A stretch of DNA of 64,000 bases from Anadara kagoshimensis (lineage: Eukaryota; Mollusca; Bivalvia; Arcoida; Arcidae), in contig CM037866.1 of the NCBI GenBank assembly GCA_021292105.1, positions 2,898,607-2,962,606 on the forward strand, in the 5' to 3' direction. Positions 4,501-10,500 of this stretch are shown here, in pieces; positions within the stretch are counted from its first letter, which is position 1; each line of letters begins with the position of its first letter. The notes beneath the pieces are model-generated. The model did no database searches. It saw only the letters and a list, made by a program, of their open reading frames with translations, and had not been told where the DNA came from. The position numbers were made by a program, and so were the translations under genes.

Positions 4501-7500
4501 TATTTATCACAGATATTTACGGCAAATACGGACACTAGTGAAGATGTTGTGATGTTGAAACTAAATATTTGATTTCCAAGGATGAAAGTGCAATTAATAT
4601 CTTTGACGGAAGTTGCTAGTAAGTCAAATTCGTTATTATTTTCAATAATCGCCCTGGCCCGATATGGAATTTACTGACCCTGTATAAACCATATTAGGTC
4701 ACCACCAGACTGTGTAACTAATAATATCTTAGGTCCTGTGGATATATATATTGCGGTACCACCAGTATGGCATTTTATACCGGTTTTATCAGTATACAGG
4801 TATACTGTTTAAGTCCTTCTGTATATTATACAGAGTTTACTGTGTTTGGTATTTTGATCATAATCAAGTGTTCTAAATTTTTTGAAATAACACAAAATTT
4901 CTTTAATAAACAGGAATACAGTTAAAGGGTTAACACACAGATTAGACATTAGTTTATAGAAATTAGAAGATAAATGATAGAGAGAAATTAATCTATTTTA
5001 AAATCACCACAAGAATAATATAACTATTTTTATACATCAAGCAGTGTTGTTAAAAAAAGAGTCACAGCAATCAGATATTCAGTATAAGTGGTTAAACATT
5101 AAAATGCAAAGAGCATTCATTAGGATGTCTTCTGATGCAAATGTAGCGGTCTGGGTAGCTCAGTGGTGGAGCAATTGCCTATAGTGCAGAAGGTCCTGGG
5201 TTCGATCCCTGGTCTGACCCTTATTCGGATCCTCTTTCCTGTTACACCAAACATCATCACAATCTAATTTCTAAAATCCATGTGATACTGTAAAATCATT
5301 AATTTTTTTCGTTTTCGTGGAACTTCTGGGACACAAATTTACCTGTTGACATAACTGGTATATTAGATTTAAAATCATTATTTCAATAAATCTGTAGTTT
5401 CCCAATTTTTGTTTCCGTGGACCCACCGGCCTACAAATTTAAGTGTCGACAAAATGGTGTATTACATTTAAAATCATTACTTTTGTAGTTTTTTATAAAT
5501 TTTTAATTGTTTCCATGGACAACCTGATCCATAAATTTACGTGTCAACAAAATGGTTCTTACATTATAATCATTATTTTTGTAGTTTCCCAATTTTCACG
5601 GTTTCCATGGTTTCCCCTGTCATTCCATACAGGAATGTTATGGGGTATAATGTGATGTGCTGGTAAATCTATTGTTCTTGATTTGTTAGTATTGTGAGCG
5701 ACTTTAAGGCATTTAATATTATTTATCAGGGTTAGCTCTGGGCATCACCAATGCCTTAATTATTTTTTAAAGATTGACAAAATTTGGCCTCTGACAATTA
5801 TTTTGATAACAGGAAAACTTTATGTGATTATCATTATCAATAATATAAATAGGAGGATTTTGACACCATATTATTGGTTAAATGTACTAATTTTACATTG
5901 TACTGATTTTAACGCAAATTATAATTTGGATATCATCTGGTGACTTGAATTAGCAGAAATTTCATGAATCATCTTGTGCTATATGATAGTGCAGACAAAC
6001 CGGCCTTAAGTGTCACCTGCTTATAAAGGCCAGTAGAATTGTATCCAAATTGTTCCTTATTCATATCATTTGAACTTGTATATAAAAGTCACCTGCCCAC
6101 AAAGACCAATTTTTACAAGTTCCCTTGAGTGGCCGTTATAGACAGGTTTGACTGTATTAAGTTTTTCCCTTGAGTGGCCTTTATAGACAGGTTTGACCGT
6201 ATTCAAGTTTTTCCTTTGAGTGGCCTTTATAGACAGGTTTGACTGTATTAAGTTTGACAATCAATTGCAATAAGCACTTAGCTAATGTGTCATTGCGAAA
6301 AACCTCTAAAAAATAGTACAATGCTAAAATGAATACTTCTACAATACTGTAAAGGGGATTATTTTCGTGGGGTAAAAATTTCGCGATTTCTGAAATCTGA
6401 CATTTGGCATGGGTGTAATTTAGGCGTTACCGATATAAGTAGGTGTATATTCTGTATATTATGATATATAAACCTGTATAGTTGTCATTTTCGCCTGGGT
6501 AAAAATTTGGCGGTAATTTCTTTAGCGCGAAATAAGCAAAAATTTTACCCACACGAAAAATAATCCCCTTTACAGTATACAAACTGGCAACAAAATACAT
6601 GTATGAGTTCCAGTGATATAATAAACATATTCAAAGCCAGAGCTAACCCTGTTAATTAAGAAACATATCAGCACCAGAGCCTTAGTGCGTCAAGTTTGAC
6701 CTGCTGGTTCAACCTTTAATTTGAATATTATATTGGGGTAATAAAATGTGTGATTTAGGTAAGACAGCATGTTTCATTACCATAAACACCCGGTTCCCAG
6801 GATTACATATCATCTTTCCTTATATATAAAGATGTAGCCCTTAAATTGCACAATGGATAACTCTGTTTGAATATTCAAATTAAAGGTCAAAGGGCCAGGT
6901 CAAACTTGACACACTATTTTATAACATACCAAAAAGAAAACATGGCCGATCAAAGCAACAAATTGGTCGACACCATTGACTGTTTTCTCTCTCATCCACT
7001 GGTCCATTCCAAACATGGCTATCAAAACGATTATAGGACCAGCCCAGAACCTTGTTAAACACCAAAAACGCATTTTATGAATAAATAAATAAATTACTTA
7101 GTTACCATCCCTGTGGATATTCAACTCAAAAATTCTGCCCCGAGTCTACAGACTTAACAGCCCTGTTTTATTTTTAGACCTTGGGAATGAAGCAGATTTT
7201 TTACTTAAAATTTAAGATAAATGAGCTTACATTCTACCCATCAGATCTCATAGCTTTGCCCACATCCCCCATCTCACATAACTACCAAGATCACATGCCT
7301 CTAAAGTAAACATAGCCCTTGGTAACCACTTTGCATATATGGTTACTAAAGCAATGCAAGACACACCTTACATGTAAATAAGGTAAAATCACTAATATTC
7401 ATGGGGTTAAAATTTTAGTGGTTTTGTTATTTAAAAATATTATGTTTGGAGAAAATATTTTGGAATTGTGTTCTGTGAAAAAAATCGCGTTGGCGGCCTT

Positions 7501-10500
7501 GGTATTTAAAAAGTTTCAATGATATCAAATTTTGTGGAATTCGCTTACCAAGAAAATAGCAAAATTTAATCCCCACCCTTCCCATGAACATTTGTGATTT
7601 TACGGTTTATTTCAAGCAATCTATATTAATACTTAACAAAAAATTTCAAAAGCTACAGAATAAAAGGGCATGCAGTCCAGGAAATCACTAAAAACTAACT
7701 TATAATATATAGTAATTGCTTGGACTGACAGCATAATGCAAGGACCAGTGCTCACCAAAAGAACACATGGCCAAGAGGACAGGCTAAAAAAAAAAGAAAG
7801 ATATAAACCATGCAGAGATAAGAAAGAGTAAATTACTACAAAAATAAAATTAAATTAAATTAAAAACAAACAAAAAGCTACAGGGAATTCAGATATATCA
7901 TGCAGGAAGCCACTCACCAAAATAAAACATGTGGACACAAAGTGGCACAATTTAAAAATAAAATGGGGATATATAATGCAGAAAACAAGCAAAAGGTAAT
8001 TCAGTATCATAGCATGCAGGGAGCCACTAACCAATAGAACACATAGCCACAAAGAGTGGCACAATGTCAAAATGGAACTGGTGAGTAATATCATGCAGAA
8101 ATTATTACAACTAAAAAACAAAGCTACAGGAAAATCAATATCATGCCATGCTGGGAGCCACTCACCAAGAAGAACACATGACCACAAAGAGCCATAAGAT
8201 TCTCCACACCGACAACGACTTTCTCTCGACTCCACATCGCCATATGAAACATGGCTATAAGAGTTATAATGGGACCAGCCCAAAACCTTAGGTATAAAAA
8301 ACAAATTGAATTTTATAATAGAACCAGCCCATAAACTTAAAAGAGATTGCATATTTAAGTGTAATATAAGGAATAAAGGAGATGAAAGCAGCAATGGTGA
8401 TTTACATCCCAGTCAAGATTCTCCACATATATCCAGCTGGTCAGTTAATGGATGGTGGAGGAAAATGGAGTCAGACAGGAGTGCCTAGTGAAAACCACAG
8501 ACCTTCAGGAAGCAAACTGATTTTGGAACACCATGATCTGTCCCAAATTGGATTCAAACTTTGGTAGTGTTGTACTGTAGATATTACAATGGTTCTGTAC
8601 AGTATAACAGTGATTTAGACCACTGAGGCCTCTCAGACATGATACTGCCTTTATAGAAATTTTGGTTACAAAAAGGCAGATTTAATTTTGAGCTTTTGAT
8701 ATTTTGAACATTGCTAAAAGTAATGGGAGCAGTCCAGAACTTTATATTATGAACAAGTGGAGCAGAACATATCAGAGTAATGATGCTTTATGCTCCAGCA
8801 AAGAGTATTTTACTTATATGGAGGCGGTGAGTTCAGGAATGGTAGAGTGGAGAAAACCTGAGTGACCAAAGAAAACCATCAGCCTTCTGTAAGCAAACTG
8901 ACACCTTTCTCACTATCTATGATCTGCCTGAGTGAGTTTCTGATCTTAGCTGTAAAAGGCGATGTGATTCGCAAGTGTACACTTAGGACCACTCTACCAT
9001 CAAGGTAGTGTATGAAAATTTTTATCACATTATAAACTTACCAGATTGTATAAAATATAAATAATGGTATATAAAACATCTGTTTGGATTTATAATGTTT
9101 TAATGTGAAAAATACGGAGTAACAAAACCATCCCCAGCCAATCAGGCGTAACGCTATCAACCCGTATCCTGGCGGACTCTCGTATGTGTATAACACTTCA
9201 GCAGGGTCAAACACCTGAAAAATTATAACATTATATTAACTTTTATGATGAGGTAGACATAAGGATTTATCAACCTCAAAACATTATATTAACCTAGGCC
9301 ATAGGCAATGTATAAAAAACATTATATTAACCTAGGCCATAGGCAATGTATAAAAGTGTCCTTTTCTTTTTTTAATGTTACATCACATAATGTCGTGTGC
9401 ATTAATGCACGGTGAACATATAGATTAATCAGGCTCGCCAAACACCTTCTCAGCCAATCAGAATAGGGCAAAATCATAGGCCATATAATAAAAATATTTA
9501 ACCAATATATACAGCTACTTATGTACAGGTCACCATTATGATTTATGGACTGACAGAGGTACAGGAAATGGACCACAATTTCGAATTATCATAGGGGAGT
9601 TTTGTTAACCCCCTTGCTGCCAAACAGACATATGTGTACTCTACTGGCTGCCTGCCACATGGACAATTATTATAAGTATCTAAGATACTTATTTTTACAT
9701 TTCATTTTCAGACTTACCTCTGCCTCGTATATAAATAAGGTAGCATATGCCAAAGTATAAAGTGTGAAAAACACTCCAATTTTTATTGTGCTGGCATTAG
9801 TAAGTTTTCCTCTGGTTATCGTGTATCCTTTTCCAACCAGTATCAACATCAGTAAAAATACCAGTGTGCTCAAAGAAGCTAAAATACGACCTGCAGAAAA
9901 AACAAATATCATTACAGAAAAATGAAATGAGTTTTAGCAATAATAATTTTTATCGTTGTCATGGAGAATCCTAGTGGCTAATTTTTTATAAAATGTACTA
10001 AATATATTTAATTCCCCTGACTAAATTGTGATTTAACCCATTCGGAAAACCAAATTTAATATAAGTGAAATATTCTTGATTGGGACTTTAAACGCCGTTC
10101 AATCAAAATCAATATATTTCTTAGTGTGTACATTAAGCAAAGCAGTGTCACGGCAACTAAGGACGTATAAGTGTTACCGACGTCATTAAATGGCACAATT
10201 CAGGTCAAGTTTTCTTTCTTTTTGCATCTAATTCAAGCATGTTGGGCCTTTGTCAGAACATCCTGGGTGTGGACGGTGATCCATTAATTTTAAGACATAT
10301 TAAGTTCATGTGGTCTTTAGCCACTCGGAAAATCATATCACAACTTACCCATTATTTCAAGTCCAAACTGTTCATATCCAGAGCTAGAATATACTCCGTA
10401 AGCAATACTGAGAAAGATAAGACTACCAATCCAGAGTCCGAGCGCTGCCATGTAAAGCTTATACGTGGCGTGAAACAGTTGTCTTGATCGTAATATGTCT

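Follow-up and report, generated by a model that had tools for sequence, protein, structure and literature searches.

The DNA stretch of Anadara kagoshimensis analysed here (64,000 nucleotides; hereafter, the window) carries, on its minus strand, a TMEM145 gene in which exon 10 is present in two adjacent versions, 10A and 10B. The question raised by this locus is whether the two exons are used as mutually exclusive alternatives. Exons 2-13 and partial copies of exon edges are listed in Table 1; no position could be assigned to exon 1, which would encode the signal peptide. In the window, 10A and 10B are separated by 1115 nt and flanked by a single exon 9 and a single exon 11. A preliminary description, made from the letters of the window, had called the encoded protein TMEM145-like, and this identity was confirmed by matches to PF21892 (N-terminal; E 6.8e-23 in both isoforms) and PF10192 (transmembrane; E 5.5e-50 for A and 2.2e-52 for B), and by its place in a quick 51-row tree (without GPR180 rows), where it fell among TMEM145 proteins: the window protein joined P0001 (100, starred) and adjoined scallop TMEM145-like proteins (90).

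Table 1. Exons of the TMEM145 gene and partial copies of exon 10A edges in the window (H, helix of the seven-helix bundle).
Feature	Position	Strand	Basis
Exon 13: tail end, PPPSYEALF, stop	1502..1648	-	frame check, tblastn
Exon 12: cytoplasmic tail	3189..3434	-	frame check, tblastn
Exon 11: H7 end and helix 8 region; downstream of the 10A/10B pair	3996..4055	-	frame check, tblastn
Exon 10B: alternative version of the 10A segment, 121 nt, B type	6930..7050	-	frame check, spliced relative contig P0001, genome DNA search
Three degenerate copies of the 10A 3' edge with donor-like GT sites (after 8032, 7918, 7756)	7751..8060	-	D4-D8
Exon 10A: outer half of H6, H6-H7 turn, most of H7; 121 nt; A type	8166..8286	-	frame, phase, tblastn, residues common to oyster/mussel
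Partial copy of the 10A 5' edge, 49 nt upstream, 85%	8313..8339	-	repeat family D3
Exon 9: H5 and inner half of H6; upstream of the 10A/10B pair	9042..9214	-	frame check, tblastn
Exon 8: H3-H4 region	9718..9890	-	frame check, tblastn
Exon 7: H2	10349..10498	-	frame check, tblastn
Exon 6: H1	11243..11314	-	frame check, tblastn
Exon 5: GOLD domain end	12133..12226	-	frame check, tblastn
Exon 4: GOLD domain	12992..13195	-	frame check, tblastn
Exon 3: GOLD domain	13881..13955	-	tblastn, splice-site scoring
Exon 2: GOLD domain	22906..22980	-	tblastn, splice-site scoring

The anatomy of the pair given in the preliminary description (two 121-nt exons with their coordinates, splice phases, open frames and residue identity) was reproduced in full from the sequence. 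The two exons are identical at 28/40 residues and 81/121 nt. Their phases agree (2 nt brought over from the preceding exon, 0 passed on), both frames are open, both exons have GT-AG ends (the boundaries of 10A are aag/G..G/gtgagt), and neither contains a stop or an indel. Because 121 nt does not divide evenly into codons, a transcript with both 10A and 10B loses its frame. Translation of the joins agreed with the earlier claim that the use of both exons or of neither shifts the frame: the 10A-10B product was frameshifted and reached a stop within exon 11, and skipping exon 10 entirely led to an immediate stop. The further claim, that each transcript contains one of the exons, is supported by relatives, whose A and B proteins differ almost only in exon 10 (see below), with the qualification that the frame argument means that double or null products are useless, not that splicing avoids them.

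The likeness of 10A and 10B exceeds chance. When random drift was simulated with 48 hits in one copy, none of 20,000 runs combined an open frame with at least 28 identical residues. The 40 nucleotide differences are distributed 12/8/20 over the three codon positions, with an excess at the third (p = 0.021). NG86 estimates are 0.30 for dN and 1.76 for dS, the latter being near saturation, with a pairwise dN/dS of ca. 0.17. We conclude that the pair is under purifying selection. A tblastn search with ten relatives detected both exons (best E 8e-16 for 10A and 1e-18 for 10B), while the next best match listed for the exon 10 part of the protein was to an unrelated sequence (E 0.25); 10B DNA had one match in the genome.

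Proteins with either version of exon 10 were found in other bivalves, and their identities were counted over columns aligned to the window protein only. In Mytilus edulis, P0008 (A) and P0062 (B; an automatic gene model that lacks most of exon 9) are identical at 347/350 positions outside exon 10 and at 22/40 inside it. Oyster P0034 (A), paired with Magallana gigas on the basis of sequence identity, and M. gigas K1QLI5/P0019 (B; also an automatic gene model, with K1QLI5 lacking exon 11) are identical at 306/307 positions outside and 20/41 inside. For Mytilus trossulus P0007 (A) and Mytilus coruscus P0013 (B; a model without exon 6), the values are 331/350 and 23/41, respectively, with exon 9 (57/57) and exon 11 (20/20) being the same in both. 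Core identity exceeded 0.9 in 44 row pairs. In 12 of these, all of them oyster or mytilid, exon 10 identity dropped by more than 0.3; eight compare A with B, and four involve P0036, which contains a frameshift inside exon 10 and was set aside by hand, as was P0046, a nemertean protein with an unusual exon 10. Intron-free Logan contigs, which for this reason we take to be transcripts, carry a single type each (B in P0001 and P0011, A in P0005 and P0034), and P0001, a spliced contig from a close relative of the window species, contains 10B (38/41 identical). These data support the view that in relatives (M. edulis, oysters) each exon occurs alone in products of one gene; for the window species, we infer the use of 10A from conservation.

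Bivalves have several TMEM145 paralogues, including three Potamilus entries with consecutive tags on contigs of equal length, and mussel and oyster A and B proteins might accordingly be products of two tandem paralogous genes, the two-exon gene being limited to the window. We consider this extremely improbable: outside exon 10 the same-group mussel and oyster pairs are nearly identical, with the change confined to that exon, recent paralogues would not diverge by half in a single exon, and the window directly shows both versions in one gene, between a single exon 9 and a single exon 11.

Pearl oyster and scallop proteins have a B-type exon 10. The rows seen were clustered at 90% identity, which hides isoforms; among them, scallops and pearl oysters lacked an A-type version of this gene, and heterodonts and unionids a B-type one. 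A region search with the 10A segment yielded five proteins, all at 72% identity or less. An alignment search with 149 aa for short fragments yielded 168 proteins; the 120 listed included stand-alone exons of A type (P0210, P0211, P0213, and P0222) and of B type (P0205), and no further A/B pair from the same species. Among the 120 rows listed of 607, the vertebrate TMEM145 rows have one closely similar exon 10 segment, though clustering could hide a second.

When window, oyster, and mussel copies were sorted by type, four columns around the H6-H7 turn separated three A rows, one of which is 10A with the A-type residue at all four, from ten B rows. The labels of the oyster and mussel pairs were assigned after viewing the sequences; relabelling these pairs left 1, 1 or 2 diagnostic columns among the three pairs, versus 4. 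In a tree built without exon 10, A- and B-carrying rows grouped by animal group. In the tree of exon 10 (41 columns), where supports are low, the ten B rows came together on a single branch (87/75, unstarred). The three A rows were placed with clam and freshwater-mussel versions (81/88). Independent duplications had a log-likelihood lower by 12.7 and were not rejected (p-AU 0.105); single-group tests gave p values of 0.099 for the window, 0.0405 for the oyster, and 0.0824 for the mussel. The low supports and the AU result leave room for a history in which the pair is real but each bivalve group duplicated the exon on its own, the likeness within the A and B types arising by convergence. We regard this history as rather unlikely, given the contrast between the one labelling and the other three, the likelihood difference, and the single branch already formed by the B rows. 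A single old duplication is thus favoured, though not proven, over separate ones. Since both versions recur in mussels and in oysters, these animals have apparently long kept the either-or choice, which reshapes the outer part of the protein.

Splice-site scoring revealed that the acceptors of 10A and 10B are the weakest two among 13 scored, while their donors are not unusually weak. Every scored donor is GT with a U2-like sequence, which rules out a U2/U12 mismatch as the cause of exclusivity, and the distance between the exons rules out steric hindrance, in which the donor of A would lie too near the branch point of B. Introns around 10A contain partial copies of its edges (Table 1), and use of any of the three donor-like GT sites would bring in-frame stops. 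Exon 3 also has an edge copy, which is fully identical, and for this reason such copies may reflect a general duplication habit of the TMEM145 gene; the idea that they act as decoy splice sites was considered and is kept only as a side note.

The edge copies imply that duplication debris is common here, both acceptors are weak, and no transcript with 10A was found for the window species or a close relative. One exon could therefore be a dying or dead duplicate that still looks intact, with the gene using a single exon. This is very improbable in view of the low dN/dS, the lack of stops and indels in either copy, the A-type residues of 10A at the diagnostic columns, and the presence of A-type exons in intron-free oyster contigs.

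We suggest that the choice between 10A and 10B would be set by regulators acting on the two weak AAG acceptors, and that nonsense-mediated decay would clear double or null products. Alternatively, exclusivity could depend not on protein regulators and decay but on docking and selector sites, with RNA pairings of the introns competing with each other. The intron between exons 9 and 10A and the intron between exons 10B and 11 have a best pairing (-70.5) that is stronger than in four shuffles (-55.3 to -65.6). This would agree with such control, but in our reading, based on the window introns, the pairing may stem from dispersed repeats in opposite orientation, and the remaining two intron combinations were within the range of their 8 and 4 shuffles. 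We consider control by intron pairing unlikely.

To locate the swapped segment, structures predicted for the relatives P0001 and P0005 were used in place of the window protein. In the P0001 model, exon 10 corresponds to residues 296-336 (H6, 280-310; H7, 313-338); in the model of P0005, an oyster relative, to residues 371-411 (H6, 355-385; H7, 388-413). The P0005 model has strands at 23-164 followed by seven helices at 183-413, the order of a GOLD domain and a seven-helix bundle. The preliminary description had placed the swap in TM6-loop-TM7; the region was right, and according to the models is narrowed to the H6-H7 turn with the outer half of H6 before it and nearly all of H7 after it. The residue differences had been said to cluster in the loop and TM7: on the P0001 model, 9 of the 12 are in TM7, 1 is in the turn, and 2 are in TM6. 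The best PDB structure match of both models was TMEM87A, at 11-16% identity in structure alignments; a PDB sequence search returned unrelated matches only (best E 0.17). The WLS chain was absent from the VIA-align structure match table, and nothing is concluded from this.

In the related TMEM87A, according to PMC9711517, the cavity is open towards the outer leaflet through a slot between H5 and H6, and a disulfide ties the H6-H7 linker to the GOLD domain. On these grounds, we propose that the swap would tune the accepted lipid, the lipidated cargo, or the contact with the GOLD domain. Each mRNA would take 10A or 10B, and two GOST-type proteins would result, sharing the GOLD domain, H1-H5, and the tail, and differing in outer H6, the H6-H7 turn, and H7. 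The suggestion that exon choice could alter ligand or partner specificity is plausible in light of the models.

Like human mutually exclusive exon sets, as outlined in parts of PMC5740500 and PMC9741552, 10A and 10B are neighbouring internal exons that are homologous and match in length and phase, their length is not a multiple of three, and one exon end falls inside a secondary-structure element (here, mid-H6). In the same sources, tandem-duplicated exclusive exons are described as modulating function without altering it (PMC5740500), and most such events are said to be ancient (PMC9741552). Unlike the human sets, 10A/10B belongs to a bivalve lineage, and its exclusive use is probable. The insect ecdysis-triggering-hormone receptor, as portrayed in sections of PMC5572281, also uses exclusive exons (4A/4B) to swap membrane helices of a seven-helix protein, and in insects at large its A forms cluster together, as do its B forms, the two being described as differing in function. 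There, the swap spans TM4 to the C-terminus and involves 3' exons, whereas the bivalve exon is internal and encodes 40 residues; the insect protein is a true GPCR with known peptides, whereas the bivalve protein is of the GOST type with no shown ligand. The GOST family members TMEM87A and WLS share with the bivalve protein a GOLD domain atop a seven-helix bundle, but the portion of PMC9711517 that describes them mentions no exon swap. Vertebrate and C. elegans TMEM145 belong to the same family as the bivalve protein by Pfam domains and alignment. Literature searches yielded no description of such an exon pair for the TMEM145 family, in line with the preliminary description.

Taken together, the TMEM145 gene of this pteriomorph bivalve very probably contains a real, conserved, tandem-duplicated and mutually exclusive exon pair that would tune the choice of partner or cargo. 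A more specific scenario is possible, though we put it forward tentatively: a pteriomorph splice switch that predates the mussel/oyster/scallop split would swap one wall of the slot towards the outer leaflet, together with the H6-H7 linker that faces the GOLD domain. Two forms of TMEM145 would result, each with its own cargo or partners, in distinct sensory or ciliated cells. Reports place TMEM145 in the links between stereocilia of hair cells (Roh et al. 2025, as cited by PMC12716839 and PMC12569810) and in C. elegans sensory cilia (PMC11317154), and its ligand or cargo is listed as unknown in a review table (PMC12716839). Two kept versions of a 40-residue segment, with four consistent diagnostic positions, point to a probable seat of TMEM145 specificity, and exchanging 10A for 10B with the rest of the protein unchanged makes a clean experiment for a little-studied family that has been connected with hair cells and with sensory cilia. 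If the old splice switch is true, it would provide two naturally occurring, nearly identical variants with which to identify the binding partners of TMEM145.

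Exons 2 to 13 of the minus-strand TMEM145 gene were positioned by splice sites, reading frame, and tblastn with ten relatives; the first exon was not located. Assignment to the TMEM145 family was based on Pfam PF21892 and PF10192. The preliminary description had claimed that two versions of exon 10, 10A and 10B, are mutually exclusive duplicates, 121 nt each, intact, and of matching phase. The intact, phase-matched exons were confirmed: either one keeps exons 9 and 11 in frame with each other, and exons 4-13 translated with a single 10A or a single 10B give 479 residues. The prediction that using both or neither breaks the frame also held, since joining 10A to 10B led to a frameshift and a stop inside exon 11, and skipping both led to an immediate stop.

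Positions of the TMEM145 gene, its exon 10 region, and other features in the window
Feature	Coordinates	Strand	Remarks
TMEM145 gene	~23 kb down to 1.5 kb	minus	
Exon 9	9214-9042	minus	upstream of pair
Exon 10A	8286-8166	minus	121 nt
Exon 10B	7050-6930	minus	121 nt
Exon 11	4055-3996	minus	downstream of pair
Partial copy of 10A 5' edge	8313-8339	minus	49 nt upstream of 10A
Three partial copies of last ~30 nt of 10A plus donor	7751-8060	minus	downstream of 10A
Copy of exon 3 acceptor and first ~37 nt	14050-13960	minus	identical; 77 nt upstream of real exon 3
Intron sequence matching P0001 start (YFIQ)	13210-13196	minus	immediately before exon 4
tRNA-like stretch	5279-5129	minus	intron between 10B and exon 11; read by eye
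Open frame	41134-43458	minus	774 codons
Exon-like pieces	37800-38916	minus	
Cysteine-containing open frame	57143-57736	plus	
Cysteine-containing open frame	62033-62416	plus	

The likeness of 10A and 10B exceeds chance. They share 81 of 121 bases and, as previously stated (ca. 70%), 28 of 40 residues. Third codon positions hold 20 of the 40 differences (p = 0.021), and NG86 analysis gave a dN of 0.30 and a dS, near saturation, of 1.76. When unconstrained drift with 48 hits in one copy was simulated, the frame was open in 36% of 20,000 runs, and no run (0/20,000) produced an open copy with 28 identical residues.

To compare relatives, a first protein search was used, which gave 607 hits. The closest among the best 120 of these (92%) was P0001, a Logan contig of 2031 nt that encodes 486 residues; it lacks introns, and we therefore infer that it is a spliced transcript. 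It uses 10B (38/41 matches, versus 29/41 for 10A). Its first residues, YFIQ, match window intron sequence immediately before exon 4, which suggests intron retention or an alternative start. Among 70 aligned rows, exon 10 was compared pairwise with exons 8, 9, and 11; 481 pairs had a core identity above 0.7. Exon 10 dropped by more than 0.3 in 12 of the 44 pairs with core identity above 0.9, all of them oyster or mytilid; eight matched A type with B type, and four involved P0036, which is frameshifted in exon 10 and was left out. Counted over columns aligned to the window protein, M. edulis P0008 (A) and P0062 (B) agreed at 347/350 positions outside exon 10 and 22/40 inside, oyster P0034 (A) and M. 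gigas P0019 (B) at 306/307 and 20/41, and M. trossulus P0007 (A) and M. coruscus P0013 (B) at 331/350 and 23/41, the last pair being identical in the adjacent exons 9 (57/57) and 11 (20/20). P0062, P0019, and P0013 lack most of exon 9, exon 11, and exon 6, respectively, and are thus imperfect gene models. Clustering of the proteins at 90% identity conceals most isoform pairs, so failure to see the second type in a species carries little weight.

In the nemertean Lineus longissimus (P0046, isoform X6), exon 10 matched eight compared rows at only 11-19/41 positions, beside 40-51/57 in exon 9 and 15-19/20 in exon 11; it is possibly another alternative form, outside molluscs. Several TMEM145 paralogues were also observed in bivalves (rows including P0023, P0039, and P0053; three consecutively tagged Potamilus entries; further groups, the second of their kind, in scallops and in oysters), and there is gene expansion in addition to exon duplication.

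The acceptors of 10A and 10B, both ending in AAG, were the weakest two among 13 scored, and their donors were unremarkable, on a generic matrix. With introns of 755, 1115, and 2874 nt around the pair and ordinary donors, the choice is not enforceable by spacing or spliceosome type, and both were ruled out. One of three intron combinations paired better than its four shuffles, which is not enough to claim pairing as the enforcer. Of the human mutually exclusive exon clusters surveyed in PMC5740500, 60% contain exons of length not divisible by three, and reads joining such exons occur in only 22% of those clusters; regulation there thus usually comes first, with decay as clean-up. By analogy, regulation is expected to act first on the 10A/10B choice, with decay removing faulty products. 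Exon pairs of this kind are already known and, according to PMC5572281, occur in another seven-helix protein, the insect ETH receptor. No description of the 10A/10B pair was found among the listed titles and abstract openings of open-licence literature on TMEM145 and on mutually exclusive exons, including those of molluscs and of seven-transmembrane receptors.

Partial edge copies lie within the gene. The real 10A donor and a donor-like site after 7918 are identical over nine bases. In P0205 (ENA contig, 10,950 nt), which carries a mytilid-like B-type exon 10, two upstream repeats of the exon's 5' edge recur every ~17 residues, resembling the 49-nt copy beside 10A; repeated duplication of the exon 10 edge thus seems to have taken place in two lineages. 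The exon 3 edge copy is a recent tandem duplication supplying a spare acceptor; splicing to it would lengthen the transcript by 77 nt and cause a frameshift. Elsewhere, the tRNA-like stretch is probably a SINE, the 774-codon frame resembles a hAT/ZMYM6-type transposase-derived protein, and the exon-like pieces, resembling RBBP5 (WD repeats), are likely a neighbouring gene. The two plus-strand frames, ending in CPDTLFPVCGSNGVFYLN and CPETLDPLCASDYSFYLN, are similar, Kazal-like in appearance, and perhaps tandem copies.

A quick 51-row tree built without exon 10 sorted A- and B-carrying rows by animal (mytilids and oysters, each 100, starred) and placed the window with P0001 (100, starred), adjoining scallops (90). 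In a tree of exon 10 only (30 rows, 41 columns), ten B rows formed one branch (87/75, unstarred) and three A rows joined clam and freshwater-mussel versions (81/88, unstarred); A rows also formed one branch in a 13-row pteriomorph tree (81/91). Enforcing separate duplications was 12.7 log units worse (p-AU 0.105), and tests of single groups gave p = 0.099 (window), 0.0405 (oyster), and 0.0824 (mussel). Four columns separated the three A from the ten B rows: 15 (H/I/E versus G/A), 18 (M/L versus Q/K/R), 20 (S/V/T versus M/I), and 26 (V versus N/H). Across the three groups that have both types, four columns are diagnostic under the labelling adopted, against 1, 1, and 2 under the three alternatives. 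The mussel, oyster, and scallop lineages split in the early Palaeozoic, and the best reading is that a single duplication of exon 10 predated that split.
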